DNA of 64,000 nucleotides from Opitutia bacterium Tous-C4FEB (GTDB lineage Bacteria; Verrucomicrobiota; Verrucomicrobiia; Opitutales; Opitutaceae): NCBI GenBank assembly GCA_002304445.1, contig NEVA01000001.1:372001-436000 (forward strand), in the 5' to 3' direction. The notes under the pieces are model-generated. The model did not search any database. It was not told the DNA's origin and saw only the letters and a list, made by a program, of their open reading frames with translations. The position numbers and the translations under genes are program-made. Shown one piece after another: positions 26,751 to 51,607 of this stretch; position 1 is the first letter of the stretch, and each line of letters begins with the position of its first letter.

Positions 26751-29048
26751 ATGAAAACCCTCCGTTCGTCAGCAGTTACGCGCCCTCTCCTCACGGCGCT
26801 CCTCGTCGGCACCGTTGCCAGCTTCGCGCAAACCCCTGCTCCCGCCCCGGCCATGCCGGCCGCTAACGAGACGATTCTCCTGAATCCATTCGATGTTACC
26901 GCCGGCAGCCCCAAGGGCTACATGGCGACCAACACCATCTCCGGCACCGCGATGAACACGCCGCTTAAGGAGGTCCCGATGACCATCAACGTCATCACCG
27001 CCGAACTGCTCGCCGATATGGTCCCGGCGGATCTGACCGCCGCGCTGACGTTTAACGCCTCGATCACCCAGACCAACCGCGTCCCCGTCTCCAATCGCGG
27101 CGATATCTTTTCGATTCGCGGCTTCCGCAATCGCAACGTCCTCATCGACGGCGTCACCGGCGGTGACTACATTCCGCCCCAGATGATCGACCGCATTGAG
27201 GTCGTGAAAGGCCCCAACACGCTTTACGGTCAGTCCGATCCCGGCGGCTTGGTGAACATCATCACCAAGCGCCCCCGCGGCCGCGAACATTTCAACCTCA
27301 ACCTCCGCGCCGGCAACCACGGTCGGCTCGCCGCCGAGTTCGACGCCAACCAGCCGGCGTTGGACGGCAAACTCGGCGTGCGGGTGGTCGGAGCCCACAC
27401 GGAGACCGACGGCTACCGGATCCTCGACGGCAACAAGTCGAACTTCCTCGGCCTCGCCAGTGATTTTCGCCTCGGGAAAAACACCACGCTGGTGCTGCAC
27501 GGCAGCGGCTCGAAGACCGAGGGCATCCCGAGCCAGCGTTCGACTTTTTCTTTCGAGATCATTCCCACCGACCTGAACCGGGACGGAAAGATCGACGCCA
27601 CCAACGTCAACGGCGTCGTCGAGAGCTCCGCACGCTACAATAACACCTTCCTCCCGCGCAACTACACGAGCGCCACCGCAGCCACGCGCTACGAACAGGA
27701 AAACCGCTTCCTTCAGCTCGGCGTGCGCCACGTCTTCAACTCGCATATCAACATGCAATACATGGCGGTCCGCACCACGCAGGAACTCGATAACAGCTTC
27801 CGCGAATTCAACACGTTCACCGCCGGGTCGTCCGACGCCAACCATTCGGCCGGCTACGATTTCAACCGCACTGATGCGCATACGCTCAATAGCTTGCTCA
27901 ATTTCTCCACGGGTCCGCTCGCGCACCGCATTTTGATCGGCGGCCGTTACACCTACGATTTTAATCGCGGAAACACCTACGCCCTTCGCGCGCTCGGTAC
28001 CGCCCCCGAGCGTGCCGTCCTCGCGGGCCTGATTGCCGGCGGCCGGCCCATCCGGCTCTTCCTCACCAAGGCGGACGTACTCTCCGGCGTGAAATACTGG
28101 CTCGATGATGTCCCCAGCCGCACCGAGCTCCGCACCATCGGTACCCGCACCGGCGCCAATGACTATGGCGAGACCCGCGTCGGTTCCGTTTACGCGACCG
28201 ACAATGTATCGTTGTTCGACAATCGTCTCAAGTTGCTTGGCGGGGTGCGCTACATCCGCATCCGCGGCCAGTCCACCAACACCGCGGGCCTGAAGACCGG
28301 GATCTTCAACGATCAGAGCAAGACCAGCTACCAAGCTGGCAGCGTATTCGACCTCACCAAACAGCTTTCAGTTTTTGGCAACATTGCGACCGCCTTCAAC
28401 CCCAACGGTTTTGACGCCCTTTCAGGCACGTTTTACAGCCCCGAGCTGTCGCGGGCTTACGAGGCCGGGCTCAAGTTTGACGATCTGTGGGAAGGTCGCA
28501 TCGGCGGCTCGGTTTCACTCTTCAACATCCGCAAGAAAAATGTCGTTCGCTCCGATTTCAACCCGATCCTTTTTCGCGCCGACACCGAAATCTCCGACGA
28601 CGAAAGCAAAGGTTGGGAAGCCGAGCTGTTCGTTAACCCGATCAAGAATTGGCAGTCGATCATCAGCTACAGCCACATCGACGCAAAAGTCGTCGTCAGC
28701 CGGACGCTCGCGAAGAATCTCCGCCTGGAGGGCGCCGCGCCGAAAAAACTCACTTTTTGGAACAGCTACGGTTTCAACACCGGCCCGCTAAAGGGCCTGC
28801 GCTTCGGCGGCGGATTCATCGTGGCTCGCGGGCCGATCCAGCAGTTTGGCACGAGCAACAACCAGCTCGTGGTGGAGAACGGCTACACCGTCATCAACCT
28901 CTTCGCCCGCTACAGCACCAAGCTCGCCGGTCGCGCCGTATCATTCGGCGTCAATGTCGACAACCTCAACGACGTCTTCTTCATCCGCAGCCGCGCCGCG
29001 ACCAATGATCCGAGGCAGATCACTTTCTCGACGTCGGTCGACTTCTGA
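26751..29048 (+). CDS. TonB-dependent receptor, siderophore-receptor type
   Basis: The 765-residue outer-membrane protein is taken from MKTLRSS, which begins a signal peptide ending near SFAQ; an ATG 18 nt upstream is the alternative. The plug domain follows (ILLNPFDVTAG, MTINVITAELLADM, SIRGFRNRNVLIDG, MIDRIEVVKGPNTLYGQSDP with GGLVNIITKRP). The 22-strand barrel ends in the aromatic residue of FSTSVDF. The plug resembles ferric-siderophore receptors, but in Verrucomicrobia this subtype is also linked to carbohydrate loci. Two sulfatase genes follow on the same strand (48 and 13 nt gaps) and a LacI operator-like site precedes it, so import of a sulfated oligosaccharide is more likely than iron uptake. 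Evidence for substrate is context only. Confidence 0.92.
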   Translation: MKTLRSSAVTRPLLTALLVGTVASFAQTPAPAPAMPAANETILLNPFDVTAGSPKGYMATNTISGTAMNTPLKEVPMTINVITAELLADMVPADLTAALTFNASITQTNRVPVSNRGDIFSIRGFRNRNVLIDGVTGGDYIPPQMIDRIEVVKGPNTLYGQSDPGGLVNIITKRPRGREHFNLNLRAGNHGRLAAEFDANQPALDGKLGVRVVGAHTETDGYRILDGNKSNFLGLASDFRLGKNTTLVLHGSGSKTEGIPSQRSTFSFEIIPTDLNRDGKIDATNVNGVVESSARYNNTFLPRNYTSATAATRYEQENRFLQLGVRHVFNSHINMQYMAVRTTQELDNSFREFNTFTAGSSDANHSAGYDFNRTDAHTLNSLLNFSTGPLAHRILIGGRYTYDFNRGNTYALRALGTAPERAVLAGLIAGGRPIRLFLTKADVLSGVKYWLDDVPSRTELRTIGTRTGANDYGETRVGSVYATDNVSLFDNRLKLLGGVRYIRIRGQSTNTAGLKTGIFNDQSKTSYQAGSVFDLTKQLSVFGNIATAFNPNGFDALSGTFYSPELSRAYEAGLKFDDLWEGRIGGSVSLFNIRKKNVVRSDFNPILFRADTEISDDESKGWEAELFVNPIKNWQSIISYSHIDAKVVVSRTLAKNLRLEGAAPKKLTFWNSYGFNTGPLKGLRFGGGFIVARGPIQQFGTSNNQLVVENGYTVINLFARYSTKLAGRAVSFGVNVDNLNDVFFIRSRAATNDPRQITFSTSVDF

Positions 29049-36688: not shown

Positions 36689-38413
36689 TCAATACCCGGC
36701 CGCCTGCCCGTCTTTGCGGCTCTCGGAGGCGCCGCGATAGGTGCCGTTGACCGCGTCGCGTTGGATCGCCTGATAGCCGCCAAAACTCCCGTTGCCGCTG
36801 CGCACCGAGTGACCACGCTGCATCAGCCCCCGCACGCTTTCGTAAGGGACGCCGCTCTCCAACTCGACAAAGCCACCGTCGGTCATCTGCGGGTTATCAT
36901 AGTCCGAGGAGCCGTCGTGATGCCAACGCGCCGCGTCGCCGGCTTCCTGCACGTTCATCCCGAAATCGATCAGATTGCAGATGATCTGAACGTGGCCTTG
37001 CGGCTGCATCGCGCCGCCCATCAGGCCGAAACTGAGCCACGGCGCGCCGTCCTTGAGCACAAAGGCCGGAATGATCGTTTGGAACGGCCGCTTGCCCGGC
37101 GCGTAGTCGTTCGCGTGGCCGGCGCGCAGTGTGAACATCTCGCCCCGGTTCTGAAACGCGAAGCCGAGACCGGGCACCACGATGCCGGAGCCCATGCCGC
37201 GGTAATTACTCTGGATGAGCGAGACCATGTTGCCGGCGGCGTCGGCCGTCGTGAGATAAATCGTGTCGCCTTCCTGCAACGCGGGATTCCCGGCGTCATA
37301 ACTGCGCGCGGCCCGCGCACCGATCAGCTTTCGTCGCTCGGCCGCGTAGTCTTTCGAGAGCAGACCGCGCAGGGGAATTTTCGAAAACTCGGGATCGGCG
37401 TAAAACTTCGCGCGATCTTCAAACGCGAGTTTCTTGGCCTCAATCATGAGGTGCAGGGCCTCGGGCGAATTGTAGCCCATCGCCTTCAGATCGCAGGCTT
37501 CGAGGATGTTCAGCATCTGGAGCGCCGCGATGCCTTGGCTGTTCGGCGGCAATTCATACACGTCGTAGCCGCGGTAGTTCACCGAGACGGGCTCGACCCA
37601 CGTCGAGGTGTGTCCGGAGAAATCCGCCTTCCGCAGATAACCGCCGTTGGCCTGCATGAACGCATCGATGCGGTCCGCGATCTCGCCCCGGTAAAACGCA
37701 TCGCGCCCGCTCTCGGCGAGCCGCGTCAACGTATCGGCCAAAGCGGGATTTTTGAAGATCGTGCCCTCGGCCGGCGCGCGGTCCCCGGGTGCAAAGACGT
37801 CGAGAAAGGCCCCGGGAAATTTATCGGCGCGGGCATTGCGCACGCTGATGCCCCAATAATAACCGATGAGCTGCGTGACGGGAAAGCCCTCGCGCGCGTA
37901 ACGGATCGCGGGTGCGAGCACCGTCTGCATCGGCAGCCGGCCATACTTCGCGTGCAATTCGAACCAGCCGTCCACCGCGCCGGGTACACTGATGGGCAAT
38001 AGGCCGCGCATAGGAATCGTCTCCCGGCCGAGTTTCTTCAGATCGGCCATGAGTTGCTCGCGGGAGAGTCCGAGCGGCGAGCGCCCCGAGGCGTTGAGCC
38101 CCGTGAGTTTTTTGTCCGCAGCGCTCCAGACGATGGCGAAAAGATCGCCGCCGATCCCGTTGCCCGTGGGCTCCATCAGGCCGAGCGCCGCGTTGGCGGC
38201 AATCGCCGCATCCACCGCCGAGCCACCGGCCTTCAGGATGTCGAGCGCCACCTGGGTCGCGAGCGGATGACTCGTCGCCGCCATCCCGTGTTGCGCGATG
38301 ATTTCGGAACGGGTGGCAAACGCCCGGCCGTTGACGCGATCGGGCTGCGCGCCAAGGGGCAACCCGAGCGCGCACGCGAGGCCAAGCAGCACCACCGGGG
38401 TAAATGATTTCAT
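36689..38413 (-). CDS. ggt: Gamma-glutamyltransferase
   Basis: The 574-residue precursor has a signal peptide (residues 1-22) and the two-part GGT fold. The large-subunit part contains GMAATSHPLATQVALDILK and GNGIGGDLFAIVW. The autoprocessing and nucleophile site is GDTIYLTTADAAGNMVSLIQ with Thr384 expected to become the N-terminus of the small subunit. SNYRGMGSGIVVPGLGFAFQNRG and MGGAMQPQGHVQI follow, as in other members. GGT cleaves gamma-glutamyl bonds, for example of glutathione, in the periplasm. Length is normal for the family. It is divergent from an M20 amidohydrolase-ammonia lyase pair, which suggests a peptide or amino-acid scavenging locus. Confidence 0.95.
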   Translation of the reverse strand: MKSFTPVVLLGLACALGLPLGAQPDRVNGRAFATRSEIIAQHGMAATSHPLATQVALDILKAGGSAVDAAIAANAALGLMEPTGNGIGGDLFAIVWSAADKKLTGLNASGRSPLGLSREQLMADLKKLGRETIPMRGLLPISVPGAVDGWFELHAKYGRLPMQTVLAPAIRYAREGFPVTQLIGYYWGISVRNARADKFPGAFLDVFAPGDRAPAEGTIFKNPALADTLTRLAESGRDAFYRGEIADRIDAFMQANGGYLRKADFSGHTSTWVEPVSVNYRGYDVYELPPNSQGIAALQMLNILEACDLKAMGYNSPEALHLMIEAKKLAFEDRAKFYADPEFSKIPLRGLLSKDYAAERRKLIGARAARSYDAGNPALQEGDTIYLTTADAAGNMVSLIQSNYRGMGSGIVVPGLGFAFQNRGEMFTLRAGHANDYAPGKRPFQTIIPAFVLKDGAPWLSFGLMGGAMQPQGHVQIICNLIDFGMNVQEAGDAARWHHDGSSDYDNPQMTDGGFVELESGVPYESVRGLMQRGHSVRSGNGSFGGYQAIQRDAVNGTYRGASESRKDGQAAGY

Positions 38414-38496
38414 GCCGTCAATCTGCGAGCGCCTCCGCCTCCGTCAATCCGCCGGGCGTCTTGCCTCGCACGCACTCCCGGCGGTAAGGGTTGCTG

Positions 38497-39792
38497 ATGT
38501 CTACGTCGTCTCCCGTCACCCCCACCCTCGCCGCCGAGCTGACCCGTTGGCGTCGCGATTTTCACCGCCACCCCGAACTCGGCTTCTGCGAGTTCCGCAC
38601 GGCCGCCATCGTCGCCGCCACTTTGGAAAAACTCGGCTGGCAAGTCGCGGTCGGCGCCGAGGTCATGCGTGCAGAAGCCCGCATGGAAGTTCCGCCCGCC
38701 GCCGAGATTGCCGCCGCCCGCGCCGAAGCGCTGCGCGATGGCGCCGATCCCGCATGGGTCGCGCGGCTCGGCGACGGCCTGACCGGCGTCGTCGCCTCTC
38801 TCGATACCGGCCGTCCCGGCCCGACGGTCGCGTTTCGCGTCGATCTGGATGCATTGCCGGTCCTTGAAAACACCGAGGCCGCCCATCTCCCGGTGCGCGA
38901 GAACTTCACCTCGACACGCCCCGGCCGCATGCACGCCTGCGGCCACGATGGCCACACCGCCATCGGCCTCGGCGTCGCGAGCGTCTTGCCTGCCCTCGCC
39001 AAAAACTGGCGCGGCAAAATCAAACTGATCTTCCAACCCGCCGAGGAAGGCTGCCGGGGGGCCAAGTCCATGGTCGCGGCCGGCGTCTTGGCCGATGTCG
39101 ATCATTACTTCGCCACCCACCTCGGCATCTCGCTCAACGAGACCGGCGCCGTCGCGTGCGGTACCGACCACATCCTCGCCACCACGAAACTCGACGCGAC
39201 CTTCCGCGGCGTCGCCGCCCACGCCGGGGTCGATCCGCACGTCGGCCGCAACGCCCTGCTCGCCGCCGCCACCGCGACCGTGCAACTCCACGCCATCGCC
39301 CGTCACGGCGCCGGCGCCTCGCGCATCAACGTCGGCCGGCTCGAAGGCGGCACCGGCCGCAATATCATCGCGGACCACGCCGTCCTGAAACTCGAAGTGC
39401 GCGGCGAGACCACGCCGATCTGCGCGTGGATGGCCGTCGAAGCCGAACGGGTGCTCCGCGCCGCCGCCACGATGCATGGCGTCGAAATCACCGTTGAAAA
39501 CATGGGCGAGGCCGGCAACGCGCCCTGCGATCCCGCCGCCCGCGCCGTCGTGCGCCGCGCCGCCGAGAAATCCGGAGCGTCACACATCGTGGAGTTTTCC
39601 CCGCTCGGCGGCAGCGAAGACGCCACGCTCATGATGGACGCGGTGCAGGCGCGGGGCGGCCAAGCCACCTATCTGCTCGTCGGCACACCCTTGCCCGCCG
39701 GACATCACCATCCGCGCTTCGACATCGACGAAGCGGCCTTGCCTAACGCCGTCGCCCTCCATGCCGCGATCGCGGAAGAACTCCTCTCATGA
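38497..39792 (+). CDS. M20 family amidohydrolase, AbgA-like
   Basis: The 431-residue protein starts at ATG 38497, preceded by AAGGG at 8 nt; a TTG two codons upstream is the alternative. It is an M20D peptidase/amidohydrolase: RRDFHRHPELGFCEFRT near the N-terminus, VAFRVDLDALPV, HACGHDGHTAIGLG with metal-binding His residues, FQPAEEGCRGAKSMV with the catalytic Glu pair, the lid domain AHAGVDPHVGRNALLAAA, and LPAGHHHPRFDIDEAAL at the end. AbgA cleaves p-aminobenzoyl-glutamate; other members remove N-acyl groups from amino acids. The stop overlaps the start of the PLP lyase gene (ATGA), so deacylation followed by deamination of the released amino acid is a reasonable pathway guess. Confidence 0.9.
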   Translation: MSTSSPVTPTLAAELTRWRRDFHRHPELGFCEFRTAAIVAATLEKLGWQVAVGAEVMRAEARMEVPPAAEIAAARAEALRDGADPAWVARLGDGLTGVVASLDTGRPGPTVAFRVDLDALPVLENTEAAHLPVRENFTSTRPGRMHACGHDGHTAIGLGVASVLPALAKNWRGKIKLIFQPAEEGCRGAKSMVAAGVLADVDHYFATHLGISLNETGAVACGTDHILATTKLDATFRGVAAHAGVDPHVGRNALLAAATATVQLHAIARHGAGASRINVGRLEGGTGRNIIADHAVLKLEVRGETTPICAWMAVEAERVLRAAATMHGVEITVENMGEAGNAPCDPAARAVVRRAAEKSGASHIVEFSPLGGSEDATLMMDAVQARGGQATYLLVGTPLPAGHHHPRFDIDEAALPNAVALHAAIAEELLS

Positions 39793-40745
39793 GCGCCACG
39801 CTCACCCTTGCCGACATTCGCGCCGCGCACGCGCGGATCGCGGATAAGATTCACCGCACCCCGGTGCTCACCAGCGCCACGCTCGATGCGCTTTGCCGGG
39901 CGCAGTTGTTCTTCAAGTGCGAGAATTTCCAGAAGATCGGCGCGTTCAAAGCGCGCGGAGCAACCAATGCAGTCTTCGCTCTCACCGATGCCGAAGCGGC
40001 AAACGGTGTGGCGACGCACTCCTCGGGCAACCACGCCGCCGCCCTCGCCCGCGCCGCTCGCCTGCGCGGCATCCCGGCCCACATCGTGATGCCGTCCAAT
40101 GCGCCGAAAACGAAAATTGAATCGGTGCGCCGCAACGGCGGTTTCATCGTCTTTTGCGAACCGACCCTTTTGGCCCGCGAGGCGGCCTGCGCCAAGATCA
40201 TCGCAGAGACGGCGGCCCGGCTGGTTCATCCTTTCGACGACTACGCCGTCATGGCTGGCCAAGGCACCGCGACGCTCGAGCTCCTCGAGCAGGCGCCAGA
40301 CCTTGACCTCATTATCGTGCCCGTCGGCGGCGGCGGGCTGCTCTGCGGCACCGCTGTCGCCGCCAAGGGCGCACGCCCCGGTATTCGTGTGATCGCCGCA
40401 GAACCCGCGGGGGCGGACGATGCGGCGCGATCCGTGGCGGCGGGACGCCTCATCCCGCTGGGGCAGGCGGCGACGATCGCCGACGGCCTGCGGACCTCGC
40501 TCAGCGCGCGGACTTTTCCGCTCATTCAACAAAAGGTGGACGGCATCGTGACGGTTTCCGAGGAAAGCATCGTCGCCGCGATGCGCCGCATCTGGGAGGT
40601 GCTCAAGATCATCATCGAGCCGAGCTGCGCGGTGCCCTACGCCGCGATCATGGAGGGGAAGATCGACGTCTCCGGTAAGCGCGTCGGCATCATTCTTACG
40701 GGTGGCAACGTCGATCTCGACGCGTTACCTTGGCTGGTGAAGTGA
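39789..40745 (+). CDS. Threonine/serine dehydratase family PLP enzyme
   Basis: The 318-residue enzyme has the fold-type II PLP signature: FFKCENFQKIGAFKARGATN with the Schiff-base Lys54, THSSGNHAAALA (residues 76-88) that cradles the substrate carboxylate, VPVGGGGLLCGTAV for the phosphate, and KIIIEPSCAVPYAA near the C-terminus. There is no C-terminal ACT domain, so it is the short form that includes catabolic threonine dehydratase, serine racemase and threo-3-hydroxyaspartate ammonia-lyase. It is translationally coupled (ATGA) to the M20 amidohydrolase upstream. The likely substrate is a beta-hydroxy amino acid. Which one cannot be settled from the sequence. Confidence 0.9.
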   Translation: MSATLTLADIRAAHARIADKIHRTPVLTSATLDALCRAQLFFKCENFQKIGAFKARGATNAVFALTDAEAANGVATHSSGNHAAALARAARLRGIPAHIVMPSNAPKTKIESVRRNGGFIVFCEPTLLAREAACAKIIAETAARLVHPFDDYAVMAGQGTATLELLEQAPDLDLIIVPVGGGGLLCGTAVAAKGARPGIRVIAAEPAGADDAARSVAAGRLIPLGQAATIADGLRTSLSARTFPLIQQKVDGIVTVSEESIVAAMRRIWEVLKIIIEPSCAVPYAAIMEGKIDVSGKRVGIILTGGNVDLDALPWLVK

Positions 40746-40876: not shown

Positions 40877-41851
40877 TCATGCGGTGTCCCGGATGGCGGC
40901 CTGGAGGTCGCGGAGCATCTTGGTGATCTCGACGTAGGAGTCGTAGTCGGGGCGGCGCATGGCGAGGGTTTCGATCGGAACATAACCGCGGTAGCCGGAT
41001 TGGCGGATGATCGTGACGAGTTTTTTTAAGTCGACCTTGGGTGAATCGACCGCGCTGCGCATCGTCTCCTTGATCTGCCAGTTGACGGCGTAGGGAGCCA
41101 TGAGCGCGATGTCGGCGTAAGGATCGGGGGTAAGATATTTGCCGGTGTCCACCATGGCGGCGCACCACTCGTGATCGACGCGCCGGAGCAGGCTAAGGTG
41201 CTCGGCGCCGGTGCTGATAAAGTCGCCGTGATTTTGAACTGCGACGATGACGCCGAATTTTTTGCCGTGATCGGCACATTCTCGGAGGGACTCGGCGAGG
41301 TAGGCCTCCACGGTGTCACGCGAAGCATTATTGGAAGCCTGCTGCCACGTTTTGAACGGCTGCTGCGAGTCGGCAAAGGCGCGAACGGTGGGAGCACCGA
41401 GTTTGGCGGCGACCTCGATCCACGTCTTGATGCGCTGCACGCCCTCGGCCCGGGTGGCAGGAGCGGCGGCGGTGAAGTCGTTGCGGACCCCGGTGCCGCT
41501 GATGGCGAGACCGAGATTGAAGGCATGGCGCTTGAGACGGATCAGGTAATCGTCGGCGGGGGCTTGGGGATAACCGGGGAAAAAGTAGCCGGTGAGATCG
41601 ATCGCGTCGAAGCCGACCTTGGCGCAAAAGTCGCAGGCGCCGAACAGGTCGAGTCCCTTGGTTTTGTCTTTGGCGTTCGCGTTGAGGAGCTCGAGGAAGG
41701 AATAGACGTTGAGCGAAGGTCGCAGGTGCGGGCCGCTGTGGCGCGGGATCGCGGTATAAGCGCCACGGGCGGTTGCAGAAGTGCCGGCCAACGCCAAAGG
41801 GAGGAAGGCGGCGGCTTTAAGAAAAGAACGGCGGGTGGACGTCGTATTCAT
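40877..41851 (-). CDS. Tat-exported TIM-barrel sugar phosphate isomerase/epimerase family protein
   Basis: The 324-residue protein carries a Tat signal (TRRSFLKAAAFLPLALAG) followed by an AP-endonuclease-2/xylose-isomerase-like TIM barrel (PF01261 type): LRPSLNVYSF, GFDAIDLTGYFFPGYP, KKFGVIVAVQNHGDF, WCAAMVDTGKYL and VDLKKLVTIIRQSGYRGYVPIETL with candidate metal-binding Glu/Asp/His residues. Such proteins isomerise or epimerise sugars and inositols; Tat-exported forms are common in this phylum. It is the third gene of a minus-strand operon behind a TonB receptor and a membrane hydrolase (16-nt gap). The substrate is unknown. Confidence 0.88.
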   Translation of the reverse strand: MNTTSTRRSFLKAAAFLPLALAGTSATARGAYTAIPRHSGPHLRPSLNVYSFLELLNANAKDKTKGLDLFGACDFCAKVGFDAIDLTGYFFPGYPQAPADDYLIRLKRHAFNLGLAISGTGVRNDFTAAAPATRAEGVQRIKTWIEVAAKLGAPTVRAFADSQQPFKTWQQASNNASRDTVEAYLAESLRECADHGKKFGVIVAVQNHGDFISTGAEHLSLLRRVDHEWCAAMVDTGKYLTPDPYADIALMAPYAVNWQIKETMRSAVDSPKVDLKKLVTIIRQSGYRGYVPIETLAMRRPDYDSYVEITKMLRDLQAAIRDTA

Positions 41852-41867
41852 GAGCTGGACGATGAAG

Positions 41868-43742
41868 TTAAAGCGGCAGATAACAGACGGTGTTCGACAA
41901 AAGAATCATGATGAAAACGAGGCACGTTGTCATCGGGCCGAGGTAGATGCGGCCGGTCATGCGGTAGAAGATGCGGTTGAAATAGGGCAAAATGAACATC
42001 ATCGGCACGATCGCGAAGAGGAGGTTCACATAGAGCCAACTGTCGGTCCAACGCACGGTGCCGGTCAGCGCAAACGTGATGTATTGGGCCGCGAGAATTA
42101 AGACGAGGCCGAGAGAATTACCGAGGCCGGCGAGCAGGAGACTGAGCCATTCGGATTGGCCGGCGAAGCGCATCCCGGCGTTTACGCGGAGCGAATTGGA
42201 AAGGAAGAAGACAAAGAAGAACGGCGCATACATCGGCACGAGCAGGAGCAGCGCGGGCTGGAACACCCGCACGCCGAGGAAGAGAAACCGGTAGTCCACG
42301 TGGAAAACAGCGTAGACGACGAAGAGCGTCAGGAAGAACGCGGCCCACAGCACCAGCGCGAGCACGGCCGTGCGGAAAAGTTCGCGCGGGCCGATGGCGA
42401 CGCCCCACGTGGCGGGACGGGCGCCGTTGGCCCGGCCATGCAGACGGTAGCCAAGATAGAAAAGCGTGAAACCGATCAGCCCATTGCAGAACGCCCAAAG
42501 AACGACGGCGTTGTTCATGCGTTGCGGGAAAAACCAGGTCTGCTCCCGACCGGACGCCTCGGTAAAGAGCCGCTGCGAAAGTTCGCAGAACGGGATGTAG
42601 GTCAGGCAGGCGATCAACGCGCCGCCGAGGAAGAACGTCCAAAAAATGATCCGACCGCGACCCGTGGGCGCGGACGGGGCCGGCGCCACCGGTTGCACGA
42701 GGCCCTGAAAGAACGAAACATGGGCGAGGAGCAGGTGCGCGAGCGGGACGAGCGAGACAAAGGCGGCGACGAGCGCGGCGAGACCGAGGATTTCCTTCCA
42801 GTGCCAGACTTGGTCGGCGGGGGGGAGCGTATTTTCGAGGCCGAACGTTTTTTGGAAATAGGCGATCTGCGCGGTGGTCGCTTCAGGACTGTAAGGCTGG
42901 AACGCGTGCAAAAGCACTTCGTTGTGAATCACCCGGAGCGTGCGGGCGGCCGGGTCACCGTAGAAACGGCCCATCTCAATCTCGTCGATTTTTGCGCCGG
43001 CGGGCAGGCCGGAGTTCACCACGCGGAGGGCTTCGGGGGCGCGGCGCATGTCGCCGTTTTTGAGTTCGTTGCGATACGCGCCTTCGTCGTGGAACGCGTA
43101 GCTCGCGCCGATATTCGAGCGGACGGGGCGGAGAATTCTTTCCGTAAAGGTGAGCACGTAGCCCGAGACGAAGACTGAGTGAACCTTGCTCGGCGTCTTG
43201 GTCTTGAGTGACTGGGCTCCAAAAAAAGAGGCGGCCTGGATCGCGGCGTTGCCGCCGGCGGAGTGGCCCGTGACACCGATGCGGGTCTTGTCGATATAGT
43301 TCAGGTTGTCGGTGTCGGCGGCGTAGTTGACGACGGCGAACATGCCGTAGCCCTCGTTGGTGGCGGAGCGTTGGTTGGTGGACGAGCTCGACGAGCCTTG
43401 GGAGTAAGGATCAATGGCGATCACGACCATGCCGCGGCGGGCGAGTTCGAGGGAGATATTGGCTTGGGTTTCTTTCGAACGCTGAAACCCCGGCACCACG
43501 ATGACCAACGGCGCCGGCGTCTCGGCGGTGGCAGAAAGCGGACGGAACAGGTCGGCGACGATCCACTGGCCGTTCTGCATCGGCAGCCGGATCTCGGTCA
43601 CGCGCACGCGACCGGACGAGGTTTGCACCTGCGAGGCGAGCCAGCTCCCGACGAAGATGACGACCAAACAAACGGCCAGCAGCCGGCGGCTGAAGCGGAG
43701 GCGGGGTTCGGACAGGGATTCAGGAACGGGCGATACGGTCAT
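41868..43742 (-). CDS. Membrane protein with N-terminal alpha/beta hydrolase domain
   Basis: The 624-residue protein has one N-terminal transmembrane helix (about residues 20-38), an alpha/beta hydrolase domain outside it (IVADLFRPL, PLVIVVPGFQRSKE, VVIAIDPYSQGSS, and the nucleophile elbow GVTGHSAGG with Ser161; possible catalytic His in EVLLHAF), then about eight further membrane helices from residue 320 to the end. The catalytic serine is clear; the Asp is not assigned. The combination of an extracytoplasmic esterase-like domain with a polytopic membrane domain is unusual. It lies between the TonB receptor gene (61-nt gap) and the TIM-barrel gene (16-nt gap), so a joint uptake and processing role is likely. 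Confidence 0.82.
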   Translation of the reverse strand: MTVSPVPESLSEPRLRFSRRLLAVCLVVIFVGSWLASQVQTSSGRVRVTEIRLPMQNGQWIVADLFRPLSATAETPAPLVIVVPGFQRSKETQANISLELARRGMVVIAIDPYSQGSSSSSTNQRSATNEGYGMFAVVNYAADTDNLNYIDKTRIGVTGHSAGGNAAIQAASFFGAQSLKTKTPSKVHSVFVSGYVLTFTERILRPVRSNIGASYAFHDEGAYRNELKNGDMRRAPEALRVVNSGLPAGAKIDEIEMGRFYGDPAARTLRVIHNEVLLHAFQPYSPEATTAQIAYFQKTFGLENTLPPADQVWHWKEILGLAALVAAFVSLVPLAHLLLAHVSFFQGLVQPVAPAPSAPTGRGRIIFWTFFLGGALIACLTYIPFCELSQRLFTEASGREQTWFFPQRMNNAVVLWAFCNGLIGFTLFYLGYRLHGRANGARPATWGVAIGPRELFRTAVLALVLWAAFFLTLFVVYAVFHVDYRFLFLGVRVFQPALLLLVPMYAPFFFVFFLSNSLRVNAGMRFAGQSEWLSLLLAGLGNSLGLVLILAAQYITFALTGTVRWTDSWLYVNLLFAIVPMMFILPYFNRIFYRMTGRIYLGPMTTCLVFIMILLSNTVCYLPL

Positions 43743-43803
43743 GAAGAAAAATGAAACGCGGGCGGGCGCCGAGGCGAGCCCACCCGCGACCCCTCGCGCG
43801 AAA

Positions 43804-46800
43804 TCAGAACGTCAGCTTGGCCGACAGCGTGTAATTGCGCGGGACGAGGTAGCTGAAGTTGCCGGGGACGGTCACGCGGGCGGGAGAAGAGATATCGGTG
43901 CGGGGCCGCAGGTTGGTGGCGCTGGTGCCGATGACGCCGCCGTTGCTGCCGTAGATCGGCTCCCGGCGGTCGAAGAGGTTATCAACGTTGAAGTCGAGTT
44001 GGAGGCTGCGGCCTCGCTTCAACTTGAAGGTATAGGAGAGGCTCGCGACGCCTCGGTAATAGGACGGTGCATAAACCGAGTCTCCGGGGCCCACCGTGGG
44101 ATCGTCGATGGCGACGGCGGGGTTCGCCGGGTTAACGATGGTATCGCTGCCCCTGTAGCCAACGACCTGACCGCCGCGGTAATTGACGCCCGCGCCCACG
44201 CGCACACCCTTGAGCGGGCCGTTTTGGAAGCGGTAATCGGTGGCGAGATTGCCGACCCAGCGGCTGCTGCCGTTGGTCTCCTGGGGAACTTGGGCGGTGG
44301 TGTTGGGAATGACCGTATCGATGAGGTTGTTCCAACCGTTCACGGCCGCTTGGACGCGCGACTGGTTGATCGTGGCGGGATTATTGAGCGCTGGATTGAT
44401 GGAGGCGTCGTTGTTCGCATCGATCAGGATGCCGGCGTCGGCGAGGATCTGGCGGGAGATGGCGTCCTGTGATTTGAAGTAGGCGATGATGTCAGGGTAT
44501 TGGTCGCGCACCCTGGCCTTGGTGTGACCGACGTTGAGCACGGTGCGCCAAGCGCGGGTAAAATTGGCGGTGAGCTCCAGTTCATAGCCCTTGGTTTCCG
44601 AGGTTACGGTGGAATAAACGTTCTGCGGGAAGCGGGCGACATTGCGGGCGTTGCGACCGACGGAACTGAGGTCGCCGACCACCGGGGCGTCGGAGATCGC
44701 GTTGTAAGCGCCGTTGAACCCTGAAGGTGAAAGGACTGAGGTACCGGCTTGATAGGAGTCGAAGGCGCCGATGCTGAGTGACATCCGGCCGTTGGGCAGC
44801 GTGACGCGGACACCGTAGTCTTTGCCGCGCGAGCTGGTGGGCGGCACGAGCGTCCCATCGACTTTCTGCTGGGGCGAAGTGAGGCTGAAGGTCTCGGCGA
44901 CGTTGGAATAGACGCCGAGCCAGCGGGTGATGTTCACGGTGCCGCCGAGGGTGAAGGTATTGATAATGGGCGAGAGCGACGGGGAATCGTAGTCGTCGCG
45001 GAAACGATCGCCGGCGTATTGCGGCTGCGGAACGTTCGCGCCGTTGACGTTTGCGCGAGGCCGGACATCGGCGATCTGCGCGGGGCCGGTGGGCACGCCG
45101 GCGGCGTTCTTCGGCGTGTATTTGAGGTCAAAATAATCCTTGGGCGCGTCCTTGCGGAAGACGAGCGTGGTGCCGTCCCAGCCGGGTGCGTTGTCGCCGG
45201 GCGAGACGACGCGCTTGTCGCCGATCTCGGCGAAATCGCGGCGGAAGGCGCCGATGAGGACGAGGCGGTTTTTGAAGAGGTCGAGATTCCCGGCGGCTTG
45301 GATGAATTTGTATTTCCGGAGACTGTCGCGGTTGTTGTCCTCGCGCCGGGTGTCGAACATCCAGGTGGGCGTGACGGTCTCCGTCGCACCGGTGACAGGA
45401 TTGACGAGTTTCACGGGCGCCGTGGCGGGCGTGTAATCGCGGTTGGGCTGGTCGAGATAGAAGCGGGAGTAGAGCCCATATTCGCTGTATTCGAGATTAT
45501 CGACCCAGCTGCGGGCGTCGGGGGTGCGGCTCTTCAGCGGGAGCAGCAGCGTGAGGGCGCGGGACTTCGTCTTCTGCTCGGTGAGACCGGCCATGCTGCT
45601 GAACTGAAATTTGCCGAAGCGCGTGTCTTTGATGTAGACCGCCTGAGCGCGGACGTTCTTCAGGTCGTTGGTGCGGAGGTTCTGATACTCCATGAACTCC
45701 ATGTAGGCGTGTTTGAAATAGGGATTGGCCGCGCCGGTGCCGGGGAGCGTCGAGTTGATGTCGATGTAGATGTCCTGCCCGCCCCGGCGGGCGAGGCCGG
45801 CTTGGCCGTTGACGTTGCTCTGGTTGATGTCGCCGGCGACCTCGAGAAAAAGGCTGTCGCCGAGTTTGTAGTTGGCGGTGAGCGCGAGATCTTTGCCGAG
45901 CTCGGTGAAGGTCGGGAGTTTGTTGGTCCAAACCGTCGTGGACTCGCGGGTCGGCACGCGGAAAAACGGTGAGCCCGAGAGCGCGCGGGCGTAACGGTCG
46001 GCGGGGACGCCAAAGTTGTCGTCGATCATCGCCTGATTGTTGATCGTGAAGCTGGGGGTGCGGATCGGAACGCCGTTGATCTGATTGGTGAGCGACAGGG
46101 TGGTGCTTTGCGCGGCGCCCTTCGTGACGTAGCGGTTTTCGAAGTTAACGACATTGCCGCCGAAGGCGTCGTTTCTCACCCAACGCGGCCCGGAGCGCAC
46201 GATGCCGGCGGCCGCGATCTCTGCATTGGTGGGCAATGTCGTCGGCACCGACGCGAAGGTCGTGCGGCCATCCCAAGCGGAGATGCGGTCGCGGAGCGAG
46301 GTCGTCCCGCGCAACTCGCGGCTCTCGCCGTATTCAGCCTCGGCGCGAAACGACAGGCGCGACGTGGCTTTAAACGTGGCGGCGAGGTGCGCGCCGTACC
46401 GGTCTTTCCACTCGTTGTCGCGCCACGTGTTGGCTTGGTCCCACACGACGTTAGCGCGGACCGCGAATTGCGAATTCAACGCCTGATTCACGTCGGCCGT
46501 GAAGCGGTAGCGTTCGAAGCTGCCGAGTTGCACGCGGGCGCTCTGAAAACTCTTGGTGGTGTCGGCCTGCTTGGTCACGGAGTTGACGGTGCCGCCGACG
46601 CCGCCGGCGCCGTAGAGGACGGCGTTGGGCCCGCGGCCGTAATCCACGCGGTCGAGGTTGTAGCTGTCGGCCGTGGTGATGTAGGGGAAAAAATTACGCG
46701 TCGGCAGACCGGTCGAAACGCCGCGCGTGCGCAGGCCGCCGTTGCCGACAGAGGTGCCGAAGGCGCGGTTGGTGCCATCGGCATCGACGACGGTGCTGTT

Positions 46801-47130
46801 GACGGACCACTGCGTGGCCTCAGCCACGTCGGTAAGATTAAAGGCTTCGAGGAATTCCGCGGTGACGACCGAGTAAGCGACGGGCGTATCTTTCAGCGCG
46901 GTGGCGATGCGGCCGCCGGCCAGCGAGCTCGCGGCGACAAAACCCACGTCTTTCTCCGCGCTCACATTGAACGGCGTCAGCGTGATGGCTTCGCCGCTGG
47001 TCTCAGGCTTGGGCGCCCGCGCGGTTTGAGCTCGAACAACCGGGGTGCACAGTACGGCGAAGGCGGATAAAACCGCAGGAATCCAAGAACGACGACACGA
47101 TGGGGTAATAGCGGAGGGACGGGTATTCAT
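43804..47130 (-). CDS. Large TonB-dependent receptor of the Opitutaceae type
   Basis: The 1108-residue protein begins MNTRPSAITPSCRRSWIPAV with a signal peptide ending near VVRAQT; the frame extends 36 codons further upstream without similarity. The plug domain contains ITLTPFNVSAEKDVGFVAAS, SLAGGRIATALKDTPVAYSV, the VTAEFLEAFN segment and DRVDYGRGPNAVLYGAGGVG. A long barrel with many aromatic strands follows and ends YTLSAKLTF, with terminal Phe for BAM recognition. The length, about 300 residues above a typical siderophore receptor, is common in the expanded verrucomicrobial family. It heads an operon with the membrane hydrolase and TIM-barrel genes. Cargo is inferred to be an organic oligomer, not proven. 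Confidence 0.92.
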   Translation of the reverse strand: MNTRPSAITPSCRRSWIPAVLSAFAVLCTPVVRAQTARAPKPETSGEAITLTPFNVSAEKDVGFVAASSLAGGRIATALKDTPVAYSVVTAEFLEAFNLTDVAEATQWSVNSTVVDADGTNRAFGTSVGNGGLRTRGVSTGLPTRNFFPYITTADSYNLDRVDYGRGPNAVLYGAGGVGGTVNSVTKQADTTKSFQSARVQLGSFERYRFTADVNQALNSQFAVRANVVWDQANTWRDNEWKDRYGAHLAATFKATSRLSFRAEAEYGESRELRGTTSLRDRISAWDGRTTFASVPTTLPTNAEIAAAGIVRSGPRWVRNDAFGGNVVNFENRYVTKGAAQSTTLSLTNQINGVPIRTPSFTINNQAMIDDNFGVPADRYARALSGSPFFRVPTRESTTVWTNKLPTFTELGKDLALTANYKLGDSLFLEVAGDINQSNVNGQAGLARRGGQDIYIDINSTLPGTGAANPYFKHAYMEFMEYQNLRTNDLKNVRAQAVYIKDTRFGKFQFSSMAGLTEQKTKSRALTLLLPLKSRTPDARSWVDNLEYSEYGLYSRFYLDQPNRDYTPATAPVKLVNPVTGATETVTPTWMFDTRREDNNRDSLRKYKFIQAAGNLDLFKNRLVLIGAFRRDFAEIGDKRVVSPGDNAPGWDGTTLVFRKDAPKDYFDLKYTPKNAAGVPTGPAQIADVRPRANVNGANVPQPQYAGDRFRDDYDSPSLSPIINTFTLGGTVNITRWLGVYSNVAETFSLTSPQQKVDGTLVPPTSSRGKDYGVRVTLPNGRMSLSIGAFDSYQAGTSVLSPSGFNGAYNAISDAPVVGDLSSVGRNARNVARFPQNVYSTVTSETKGYELELTANFTRAWRTVLNVGHTKARVRDQYPDIIAYFKSQDAISRQILADAGILIDANNDASINPALNNPATINQSRVQAAVNGWNNLIDTVIPNTTAQVPQETNGSSRWVGNLATDYRFQNGPLKGVRVGAGVNYRGGQVVGYRGSDTIVNPANPAVAIDDPTVGPGDSVYAPSYYRGVASLSYTFKLKRGRSLQLDFNVDNLFDRREPIYGSNGGVIGTSATNLRPRTDISSPARVTVPGNFSYLVPRNYTLSAKLTF

Positions 47131-47192: not shown

Positions 47193-47311
47193 CGCGGTCA
47201 GAGTTCCGACCGCGCCCGAACACCAATGCGCTCATCATCGCAGTTCAATCCGAACCTGCTCATTGCGATGAAAAAACTCACGGGGCCGATTTTCTTTTCG
47301 GGAAATTCCGA

Positions 47312-50083
47312 TCACTTCTTCAAGAACAAATCGCTCTGCACGAGGGCGTGGATCAACGAACGCACGCCGTAGGCCTGGGGTTTGGCGGCGGCCAGAATCG
47401 CCTCGACGTGCTCGCGGTCGCTGAAGTGCACGGGTGCCCCGGTCGCGTAGACGACAAACTGGCGCGCGAGATTGCGGGCGAGCGCTTCGTCTTCCGTGCG
47501 CAGGAGATTCTTGAAATCACGCACGTCGACAAACGGCCGGCCATCGGGGAGTTCGCCGGCGGCATCGACGGGAAGCCCATAGTGATAGCCGAAGGCATGG
47601 CCGTTTTTGCCGCGGCCCACTTCCGCTTTTTTCGTTTCGTCGATCGCGCGGTAGCGGTCCCGCCACGCGCCCATGACATCGAAATTCTCGAGCGCGAAGC
47701 CGGGTGGGTCCATCTTGCGGTGACACGACGCGCAGCTGACGTGGTCGCGGTGCTTTTCGAGCTGCTGGCGAATGGTCACGGCGCCGCGGATATCGGGCTC
47801 GACGGCGGCGACGGGCGGCGGCGGGGGGATGTCGATGCCGAGAATGCGTTCAACGATCCATTTGCCGCGCAGCACCGGCGAAGTCGTCGTGCCGTTGGCC
47901 GTGATTTTCAGAACACTGGCCTGCGTCATGAAGCCGCCGCGCGGGCTGTCGGGCGGCAGCGCGACCCGGCGCATCGCGGCTCCTTTTACGCCGGTGATGC
48001 CGTAGTGGGCGGCGAGGCGTTCGTTGAGATAAGTGAAGTCGGCGGCGGCAATGGTGCGCGCGGGAAGATCGGCACGAATCATTTCCTCGAACGTGAGCTG
48101 GGTCTCCGCGACCGCCGCTTCGACCAAGGCATCGTCGAGGTAGTAATCATTGTAGAGCGTGGTCGAAGGCGTGGAGTCCTCGATCTTCCGCAGGTCGACC
48201 CAGTAATCGAGAAACGCCTCACGGAAGCGGCGCGATTTCGGGTCGCTGAGCAGACGTTCGGTCTCGGCGCGGAGCACGGCCGGTTGGCTGAGCTCGCCGC
48301 GGGCGGCCCGACCGCGCAGGGCATCGTCGGGCGGAGAATTCCACAGGAAGAGCGCGAGGCGGGTGGCCACCGCCGTGTCGTCGAGCCGGCCGGGTTGCTC
48401 GTCGAGGAAAATGAAGCCGGGCGACGCGAGCACGGCGGTGTAGGTGGCCACCATCGCCTCGCCGAAACTCAGACCGGCGGCCATACGCTCATCGAACAAC
48501 GAGAGGAAACGCTGTGCATCGGCCTCGGCCACGGGACGCCGATAGGCGCGGGCCAAGAACGCGCGCAACAGGCGATCGGCATCGGACCGGGGCGCAGTGG
48601 ACACGATATCGACCCGGGATTCTTCAATCGGAATGACCCGCTGGCCCGCCTGCCGGCCACCGTCGCGCCGTTCGCCGAGCGCGATCACGGGAATCGTAAT
48701 TCCCGGCGCGTTGGGCTTCACCGTCACAAGGGGCAGATCGCCAAAGAGCAGCCGATAACCGGCAGCGGTGGCCTGATCGTAGAGCGGCCCCTCGACCTCC
48801 ATCCAACGGAAAGCGACGCTGGGCACACCGTCAGGCGTCATGAGTGGATTTCGAAAATCATTCGGCCGTGACCGATAGAAACGCGACGCGTCGGGGACGA
48901 GGGTCTCGTTGGCCAGCAGCCAGACTTCGCCGACGTCGTGGGTCGTGGGCTCGGGGGTGAGATCAAACTCGCCGACCCGGCGGTTGAGCAGACCGTTGCG
49001 CGTATAAACGGTGATGGGCTCGATCGTGCGACCGGGCGAAATCCGGTCGTAGTCGGGCGTATTGGGATTGGGCGGCCGGGGCTTGCCGACTTTATCGTCG
49101 CTGTGGGTGAAACTCTTGGTCACGCCGCCGGGCGCAGCCCACATGGTGTAGCCGTTGAAACGAATCCGGTAGCGGCCGGCGACGGGGGCGCGGAAACTAT
49201 CCCAACGATACGTGAAGCCGGTAACGTAGTTGCTCGCCACCCAGCCGACCGCTTCGAGTTCACGGGTGGCGGAATCGGCGGCGCCGACCGTAAGCGGAGC
49301 CTCGAGCATCCGGACGGCGCGCTGCGGCTCTCGACCGAGCAGCGGATAGGTCATGCGATCGGGCGACGAGTTGAAGGGGTTCGGGGTAAACTTGCTGGTG
49401 AGGGTGCGCTGGTCGCGCGCGTAATGCCGCACGGTCGTTGTGGGCGGGCGCTCGAGCTGCACGGTGAGCGCCTGACGGATCGCGTAATCGGCGGCAGCCA
49501 AGTAGCGCGCGAGGTGGACGTGGGAGACGTCGAGCGCATCGCCGACTTTATTGTAGCGGTTGGACTCGCCGTCGTCGGGGAACTGGCCGCGGATCTGGAG
49601 CCACGGCGCGCCGAGCAGATCACGCAGGGCGTTTTCGTATTCGTAGCCGTTAAGCCGGCGCTGCGTGGCGCGACCCTCGCGGGCGACGAGGGCGCGATCG
49701 TGCGTGATGAGGACCTCGCGCAGCGCCGCGAGGAAGGCCGCGGTCTCGGCCGGATCGGGGCGGGCCTTTTCCTTCGGCGGCATCTCGCCGGCACCCAGGC
49801 GGTCGTGGACCTTGATCCAAGTCGCAAAGTCGGACTGCGCCGTGAGATCGAGCGTGAGCGAGGTGAGGTCGAGGCGGGCGGTCTTGTCCTCGTCGTTGTG
49901 ACAAGCCGAGCAGTATTTGTCGGTGTAGTCGCGCAGCGCCGGCGGGAGGGCGGCGGAGGCAGCGGCAGAGAGAAAAATAAGGACGGCGACGAGGCCCAAT
50001 GTAGGGGCGCTGCTTTTCGGCGCCCGGCGTGCCCGGGCGGAACGGGTGTCGGCAAGCGACGCCCCTGCAGAAAAGGCGCTCAT
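47312..50083 (-). CDS. DUF1592/DUF1588/DUF1585-type cytochrome protein
   Basis: The 923-residue exported protein starts at an ATG overlapping the stop of the DUF1552 gene (ATGA); the frame runs 102 codons further upstream but only as antisense of that gene. A hydrophobic export segment ([17 protein letters not shown]) precedes the first heme motif CSACH at 58-62. The order then follows the planctomycete set DUF1587, DUF1595, DUF1592, DUF1588 and DUF1585: [74 protein letters not shown] with [11 protein letters not shown], and a second heme-type motif [19 protein letters not shown] at 784-788. Proteins like this pair with DUF1552 proteins and are thought to degrade complex compounds outside the cytoplasm. 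No activity is established. Confidence 0.92.
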
Positions 50084-51432
50084 ACCAACTCGAGTCCCCG
50101 CATCGTGCCGGTGGACGAAGCGAACTTGTCGCTCTCGATGCCCATGCGCTGGAGCATGGAAACGTAGAGATTGGGCAGCGGATAATTGTTCGAGGTGCTG
50201 AACGCGTGATGTTGCCCGTGTTTGAATCCACCGCCGGCAAGCAGCGTGGGCATGTTGAAACAGGTGTGGGCGTTGGCGTCGCCGAAGTTGGAACCGTAAA
50301 GCACCATCGTGCGGTCGAGGAGCGTGTCCTCGGCTTCGCGCACGGACTTCAAATCGGAGATCAAGTTGGCCAACAGTTTCATGTGCCACTCGTCGATCGT
50401 GATGAGCTCGGAGCGTTTCTTTTCGGATTTCCCGTGGTGGGAAAGGTTGTGGTAGCCGTCGGAGATCGTCTTGTCGGGAATCTCGAGTGCCGGGGTGCTC
50501 ACGCCGTCGAGCATCAGGGTAATCGCGCGGGTGGAGTCGGTCTCGATGGCGAGCCGCGCCAGGTCATACATGATTTTGACCTTCGCCATGTAGGCGGAGG
50601 GATTCGTGGGATCGACGGGCATGGGCGCCTGAACCACGGGCTTGGGCTTGGTTTCCCAACCGCGCGAGGCCTGCAGCCGGTTCTCCAGATCGCGCACGCT
50701 CGTGAAGTATTGGTCGAGTCGGTCGCGATCGCGCGCCGTCACGCCGCGTTGGAGTTCACGGGCTTGGCCGGCCACGGTGTCCAGAATACTGCGACCGTTG
50801 TCGAGTTGACGGAGCTGGGCTTTTATCTGCTCGGGGGAACCCTGGAGAAAGAGCTGCTTGAAAACCTCGGCGGCCTTGTCCTCGGGCGGGATCGCGACGC
50901 CGGTGCCGGTCCATGAGAGACTGCGCGTGCGGGTATTCACGCCGAGGGTGAGCGACGGGAAACGCGTGAGCGTGCCGATTTGCTCGGCCATGTGCTGGTC
51001 CAGGGAAACGGTGTTGCGAAACGAGCTGCTGCCGGGATGCGGCGCCGCGGTGAGAAAACAAACGTCGGCCGGGTGGCCGCCATCGACGTTGGGATGGGAA
51101 ACACCACTGAACACGCTGAAGTCCTCACGGTGGGGCTGCAGGGGCTTCAAGTAGGGCGAGGCCACGTAGTCGCGACCCGTGCCGGTGGGGAAAAACTGAT
51201 CGCCGAGGAGCCCGAGATTGTTGCACACGGCGAGCATCCGGCGGGGCTTGGCCCCGGGAGCCAGCGGTCCATCGGCCTTCGCGGCGCGGGCAACGCCAGA
51301 AAGCATCGACTCCAAAAACGGCAGCGAAAGCGCGATTCCCGTTCCCCGCAAAAAACGGCGACGCGAAAGCGGCAGGCGGGTGGTAACAAACGGGACGCGG
51401 GGCAAGGACGGCATAGCGGCGGGGATTTTCAT
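50080..51432 (-). CDS. DUF1552 domain-containing Tat-exported protein
   Basis: The 450-residue protein is taken from [13 protein letters not shown], followed by a Tat signal ([20 protein letters not shown]). DUF1552 (PF07586) segments are [63 protein letters not shown] and [20 protein letters not shown]. The fold is related to DUF1501 and alkaline-phosphatase-like enzymes, but function is unknown. The stop overlaps the start of the DUF1592 gene, the standard pairing. The frame runs on upstream to 51540 without similarity. Confidence 0.92.
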
Positions 51433-51607
51433 GGGGCGGGGGGAACGGAAAGACTGAGCCACGTAAAAGAAGTTGCGACCAAAACCGGGCGCAAGCGTTG
51501 ACTCACGATTTGCCCACGCTGCGAACCGGCCTGTCCGCATCGCCGCGGTCCAGACGATGATTTGCCGCCTCGCCTAGAGCCTCGCCCTGAGCCCACTTTT
51601 CCTTTCG

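Follow-up and report, generated by a model that had tools for sequence, protein, structure and literature searches.

A predicted periplasmic serine hydrolase fused to an eight-helix, possibly CPBP-like membrane domain and encoded beside a TonB-dependent receptor

The window analysed here, the whole stretch of 64,000 nucleotides, contains three minus-strand genes in a row, and because the ORF list places gaps of merely 16 and 61 bases between them, it is plausible that they form one operon and are transcribed together. The upstream gene (43804..47130) encodes a TonB-dependent receptor of 1108 amino acids, counted from an ATG with a signal-peptide-like start (an alternative ORF start lies at 47238); its Plug domain was recognized by the Pfam model PF07715 with 36.9 bits against a cut-off of 23.9 (E 5.6e-9), and the beta-barrel model PF00593 gave no match at E 0.1. 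Two near full-length paralogues of this receptor, 37% identical to it, are present in its own genome. The middle gene (41868..43742) encodes a 624-residue protein in which the ORFs, Pfam and an AlphaFold model point to a serine hydrolase with one plus eight membrane helices. The downstream gene (40877..41851) encodes a xylose-isomerase-like TIM-barrel protein of 324 amino acids, identified by Pfam (PF01261, 94.2 bits against a cut-off of 31.1, E 1.4e-26), with an RRSFLK twin-arginine motif seen by eye at its N-terminus and a score against the IolO model that was far under the cut-off. This arrangement had been reported correctly in the preliminary description.

Several other genes surround the row. 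Pfam recognized a gamma-glutamyltranspeptidase (GGT) on the same strand at 36689..38413, 3.5 kb downstream of the hydrolase. Between it and the TIM-barrel gene, an M20 peptidase-like gene and a PALP-family PLP enzyme gene with a 4-base overlap lie on the plus strand (38491-40745). Upstream of the receptor and on its strand, a PSCyt/DUF1592-DUF1588-DUF1585 protein and a DUF1552 protein are encoded at 47312-51540, and another TonB-dependent receptor match is found at 26763-27473 on the plus strand.

The AlphaFold model of the 624-residue protein (mean pLDDT 87.7, pTM 0.87) consists of one N-terminal helix, an alpha/beta-hydrolase domain and eight more long helices, running from 313-341 to 601-615. 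The N-terminal helix (residues 12-40; 43623..43709, minus strand) is a probable signal anchor that would leave the hydrolase outside. The hydrolase domain (residues ~46-303; 42834..43607, minus strand) was delimited from Pfam, the model and structural matches; six alpha/beta-hydrolase models scored above cut-off (PF12740, PF00561, PF12697, PF05448, PF06500 and PF01738), all of these matches ending by residue 226, and the protein stayed under every NCBIfam cut-off among the matches listed. The nucleophile elbow GHSAGG (residues 159-164; 43251..43268, minus strand) presents Ser161 after the modelled strand 150-160, followed in the usual triad order by Asp219 after strand 210-218 (43086..43088, minus strand) and His279 after strand 270-278 (42906..42908, minus strand). 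Each of the three residues was invariant in all 60 aligned homologues and retained in four of four distant relatives, and Glu220, beside Asp219, was likewise invariant. Serine, aspartate and histidine thus occupy all triad positions, and catalysis is predicted from sequence and model. By its fold, its G-x-S-x-G elbow and the placement of its acid and histidine, the protein belongs to the alpha/beta hydrolase superfamily, and its catalytic half is ordinary: the domain resembles solved esterases, lipases and polyester hydrolases with Z up to 21.7 across 206 residues. Fold, elbow motif and triad positions are held in common with the PETase/cutinase, feruloyl-esterase and monoacylglycerol-lipase branch, in which the matched chains are mostly lone hydrolase domains, whereas the window protein adds eight fused membrane helices (residues 313-615; 41898..42806, minus strand). 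The fusion proposed in the preliminary description is therefore real, its count of about eight membrane helices agrees with the model, and its concern that a catalytic His or Asp might be missing did not materialize, since D219 and H279 are invariant and are modelled after the expected strands.

Full-length relatives were found in 11 of 95 genomes, including the window's own (45-96% identity for the others), and in 3 of 13 genomes of its genus; the gene is patchy, though several of the 95 genomes are incomplete. Of 499 candidate stretches in the genome_contigs collection, 143 proved to encode a relative, and the best 80 were kept. Their record labels span seven bacterial phyla (Verrucomicrobiota, Pseudomonadota, Acidobacteriota, Gemmatimonadota, Planctomycetota, Bacteroidota and Neomarinimicrobiota, also called Fidelibacterota), but nearly all are metagenome bins and certain labels may be wrong. 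The alignment comprised the window protein, 56 of these 80 loci after near-copies had been thinned by eye, and L008, L009 and L011, with L089 left out for a frameshift. More distant relatives, about 27% identical over 82-98% of the query, are carried on plasmids of Haloarcula, Deinococcus, Jeotgalibaca and Maritalea, where their sole annotation is "alpha/beta hydrolases". Full-length proteins of the Maritalea type (46-55% identity) also occur in 8 of 398 genomes from the phylum of a Woeseiaceae bin (G361), presumably Pseudomonadota. A search with the membrane half alone, run over 387 genomes from the phylum of the window, gave seven strong matches, each within an open frame of at least 630 codons and so part of the fusion; two weak matches (E 0.0015 and 0.0017) were dropped, their ORFs being ones we take to be ArnT-like glycosyltransferases. 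The fusion is not a product of chance, given its presence in 11 of the genomes and 143 of the stretches; the design is real and conserved, and it represents an unnamed, widespread family that is not peculiar to the window operon. No description of it was found in the open-licence literature, which is weak evidence of absence, so that a hydrolase joined to an eight-helix domain outside Pfam, widespread as it is, is apparently unstudied.

Gene neighbourhoods were compared across 84 loci (88 minus four duplicates, with near-copies remaining), 81 of which have an upstream gene. Neighbouring genes were called by our own codon-usage script rather than a standard caller, and most cluster names rest on Pfam results for one or a few members. 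In 52 of the 81 loci the upstream gene is at most 250 bases away and shares the hydrolase's strand, and in 12 of these 52 it encodes a receptor. These receptors come from three separate clusters: c40 (the window, L031 and L032), c3 (L044, L060, L061, L070, L108 and L028) and the Oar-type c17 (L088, L101 and L109). The counts cover these three clusters and may miss other receptor kinds; a first plug profile overlooked the Oar-type receptors, which Pfam recovered, and receptor identity was assigned by Pfam for the window receptor, L044 and the three c17 genes. For rough comparison, we counted about 41 receptor ORFs in the window's genome, about 1% of its genes. On the maximum-likelihood tree, over all 59 rows having an upstream gene, the state "receptor directly upstream" changed at least six times, by gain or loss, and the nearest relative of the window protein (L033, 87%) has instead an upstream gene that is weakly SBF-like, under the family cut-off. 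For these reasons the receptor link is optional; it is real and recurrent, but minor. The coupling to a receptor that the preliminary description had put forward consequently holds for a recurring minority of loci. The search for the same triplet elsewhere, which it had proposed as a check, placed receptor, hydrolase and TIM barrel side by side in 3 of 84 loci, which are closely related to one another; a TIM-barrel gene of the window's cluster is present in six, and the triplet was rejected as a special feature.

Other neighbours recur as well. The order receptor-hydrolase-GGT (L044, L060, L061, L070 and L108) is commoner than the TIM-barrel triplet; a GGT-cluster gene is directly downstream of the hydrolase in these five loci and L082, lies 3.5-3.7 kb downstream in the window, L031 and L032, and is present in 12 of 84 loci overall (Pfam was run on the L044 and window genes). 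In L108 (4247-11623), the hydrolase belongs to a deep lineage with acidobacterial members, and its receptor cluster and GGT match a distant Opitutaceae lineage, which suggests that the whole receptor-hydrolase-GGT triplet was transferred or retained. In L062 (702-7043), an ABC ATPase, a MacB/FtsX permease, the hydrolase and a CrtC/AttH lipocalin form an operon; the permease and lipocalin clusters are each found in five loci, with genes of one or the other recurring in L063, L065, L071 and L094, a context in keeping with work on lipids or the envelope. Glycerol kinase and further genes of glycerol catabolism are found close to the relatives on the Deinococcus and Jeotgalibaca plasmids (L127 3920-8997 and L128 1-9962). 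An acylglycerol substrate was considered on this account and set aside. By eye, glycerol genes were recognized beside the hydrolase in none of eight relatives belonging to other genomes, one of which has a sugar-kinase-like gene some 1.6 kb off; the Haloarcula and Maritalea plasmids have no glycerol genes within 4 kb of the relative, and the glycerol link is weak. The neighbourhoods vary widely and point to no single substrate.

The membrane half is the unusual part of the protein. The C-terminal half of the window protein had no Pfam match at E 0.1, and when 60 relatives were scanned singly, the families matching more than two members were all of the alpha/beta-hydrolase type among the best 25 of 29 families, domain positions being known for the window protein only. 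Predicted alone from 57 sequences, the membrane half gave a confident model (pLDDT 87.5, pTM 0.87). When the top chains from Foldseek were realigned with VIA-align 2, SpdC ranked first (Z 10.4, 212 residues, rmsd 4.4) and Rce1 second (Z 9.2, 204 residues, rmsd 4.5), the next row falling to 5.7, although the tool advises caution for helical bundles below about 13, and these values are 9-10. Rce1 and APH-1 are listed as CPBP-family members, and SpdC is grouped with the staphylococcal CPBPs as almost certainly not a protease, in the part of PMC7387801 that treats them. APH-1 of gamma-secretase reached Z 5.1 and 4.9 only, level with unrelated entries, among them a designed nanoparticle (5.7), TMEM16F (5.2) and NosFY (5.1). 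In Foldseek searches of the PDB, no row reached E 0.001; an aquaporin headed the list (probability 0.44, E 0.29), and three of the best 50 rows were bile-acid transporters (E 0.34, 0.62 and 1.3). Against the BFVD viral models, the first row was a phage "CAAX protease self-immunity" protein (probability 0.94, E 0.14; TM-scores 0.36 and 0.46), the runner-up among the best 50 rows having a probability of 0.28. Two libraries searched with different programs, SpdC and Rce1 from the PDB by VIA-align and the phage protein from BFVD by Foldseek, therefore lead to the same CPBP family. The resemblance of the modelled membrane half to a CPBP-family bundle is tentative, with modest scores, and lies at fold level only.

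Sequence comparison gave no sign of CPBP membership. The motif EExxxR was present in none of 57 members but in all 27 CPBP proteins of the relatives (L139 and L147 were left out of this set, a wrong ORF having been taken as CPBP, and L138 yielded none). As unplaced patterns, FxxxH occurred in 19 of 57 members against 26 of 27 CPBP proteins and HxxxN in 13 of 57 against 27 of 27, and the helices where they would fall have no conserved His. PF02517 did not match the window protein at E 0.1 and was absent among the best 25 of 29 families for the 60 members. In hhalign comparisons of the membrane half (57 rows, also with four distant relatives added) with the 27 CPBP sequences, probabilities were 0.2-0.5% against 0.3-1.1% for reversed controls, and hmmsearch scores reached at best 0.9 bits, against 1.0 for reversed controls and -0.4 for the distant relatives. 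A C-terminal "TGRIYLGP..." stretch, likened by eye to the CPBP "TGxx...H", was likewise given up, the profile tests being no better than controls. At the C-terminal end of the Rce1 alignment, the catalytic positions of Rce1 map roughly, by spacing arithmetic rather than residue alignment, to N516/S517, Q553 and T606; N516, Q553 and T606 are spaced by 37 and 53 residues and E140, H173 and H227 of MmRce1 by 33 and 54, with the MmRce1 numbering given in a passage of PMC10811503. All 60 members share N516, S517 and Q553, and the position standing for the CPBP His, T606, is T in 47 of 60. The protein is accordingly not filed as a CPBP member; it probably functions like a degenerate one.

Conservation and predicted topology bear on what this half may do. 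Hydropathy, loops and domain order place the N-terminus inside and would make the hydrolase periplasmic, with the loops 393-407, 481-501 and 561-568 predicted on the hydrolase's side of the membrane. Within or beside these loops lie the invariant residues T402, W403, R408, N411, D483 and W565, which, under this topology, fits a joint binding site formed by both halves.

Considering all the above results, we propose that this 624-residue chain is a serine hydrolase of the inner membrane, acting on the periplasmic side. Its N-terminal helix and eight C-terminal helices would fix the alpha/beta-hydrolase domain to the membrane surface, and the eight-helix domain would be a CPBP-like (CAAX-protease-like) bundle that lacks the CPBP glutamate motif. 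Given a membrane-associated substrate of ester, thioester or amide type, the bundle may bind its hydrophobic portion and present it to Ser161, Asp219 and His279, much as SpdC positions the hydrolase SagB, and the membrane half would be neither channel nor carrier. In the window operon and several others, the receptor could carry the substrate or a precursor across the outer membrane. To this reading, in which a CPBP-like domain keeps a membrane-associated substrate in place for a periplasmic serine hydrolase, we assign a probability of roughly one half (0.5). A broader version is more tentative, and we would sooner bet against it: a pan-prokaryotic family of single-chain "presenting hydrolases", in which a pseudo-CAAX-protease bundle draws a lipid-anchored substrate from the bilayer to the triad.

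Three alternatives were weighed against this proposal. The protein might be a transacylase in which Ser161 takes an acyl group and hands it to an acceptor in the CPBP-like membrane half, which on analogy with the LnsA/LnsB pair for lipoprotein N-acylation is conceivable, if rather doubtful. Hydrolysis is the more frequent activity of alpha/beta hydrolases, which speaks against it, and no recurrent acyl-donor or lipoprotein neighbours were recognized (some neighbours were checked with profiles). In its favour, the membrane half has invariant polar residues of its own, and LnsB is described in passages of PMC7387801 as remotely homologous to CPBP proteins without the signature residues, acyl transfer requiring both LnsA and LnsB; transacylation and hydrolysis are inseparable by sequence.

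An improbable second alternative is that the helices are an elaborate anchor only and that the hydrolase acts on soluble substrates brought by the receptor. GGT, elsewhere a soluble periplasmic enzyme, is encoded in some neighbourhoods and would suit such substrates. Against a mere anchor, the membrane half is conserved like the whole protein (mean column identity 68% over 57 rows and 65% over 60 rows, respectively), and its invariant Asp, Arg, Asn, Gln and Trp residues in the alignment exceed the needs of an anchor. The third alternative, favoured in the preliminary description, is that the membrane half moves the product released by the hydrolase inward, so that ester cleavage and uptake are coupled; the repeatedly gained or lost upstream receptors and the aquaporin and bile-acid transporter rows lend it something, but a coupled transporter is unlikely in view of the CPBP proteins heading the VIA-align and BFVD results, the lack of any Pfam transporter family in the window protein and of any non-hydrolase family in more than two of the 60 members (best 25 of 29 families), the 8 of 84 loci in which an SDF-cluster gene encodes a separate transporter (among them L047, which was checked with Pfam, L051 and L027), and relatives in Haloarcula and Jeotgalibaca, which are not known to have a TonB-type outer membrane. 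A match to a non-transport family, which had been set beforehand as the outcome telling against transport, was thus obtained at fold level only, where CPBP proteins such as SpdC and Rce1 represent one in the account of PMC7387801, while the top Foldseek row remained an aquaporin. Overall, the earlier interpretation is partly supported: the idea of transfer through the membrane half found no backing in its best structural matches, and the operon can be reread with this half as a possible part of the active site and not just a candidate transporter.

The proposed presenting hydrolase can be compared with several known systems. As in TonB-receptor uptake operons, the window has a receptor directly upstream on the same strand, but the hydrolase family as a whole shows one in a minority of loci only, and the receptor cluster differs between lineages. 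The best structural matches of the membrane half belong to the CPBP/ABI family (PF02517; Rce1 4cad, DidK, LnsB and APH-1), but the membrane half has neither a profile match nor the EExxxR motif seen in all 27 CPBP proteins of relatives. For LnsB, a degenerate member, a role as a chaperone or non-catalytic helper is suggested in PMC7387801, in its passages on that protein. A further parallel is the SagB-SpdC complex (PDB 6u0o), which likewise combines an extracytoplasmic, membrane-associated hydrolase with a CPBP-type membrane protein without protease residues, and in which, as the relevant part of PMC10581084 describes, SpdC acts as a scaffold that orients the SagB active site. By VIA-align, SpdC is also the closest fold to the membrane half, although no SpdC match was found at E 1 among the best 60 of 175 when the window protein was compared with PDB sequences. 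The two systems differ in that SagB and SpdC are two proteins and the window protein is one chain, and in that SagB is an N-acetylglucosaminidase, in contrast to the alpha/beta-hydrolase catalytic domain of the window protein. If the CPBP-like reading is true, a fold best known from proteases would serve as a fixed substrate holder within one polypeptide, and a single chain would be easier to study than the two-protein pairs. Under the broader and more tentative version, the family would be a single-protein counterpart of SagB-SpdC, LnsA-LnsB and presenilin-APH-1, which would suggest that catalytically dead CPBP bundles were turned repeatedly into substrate holders for unrelated enzymes.
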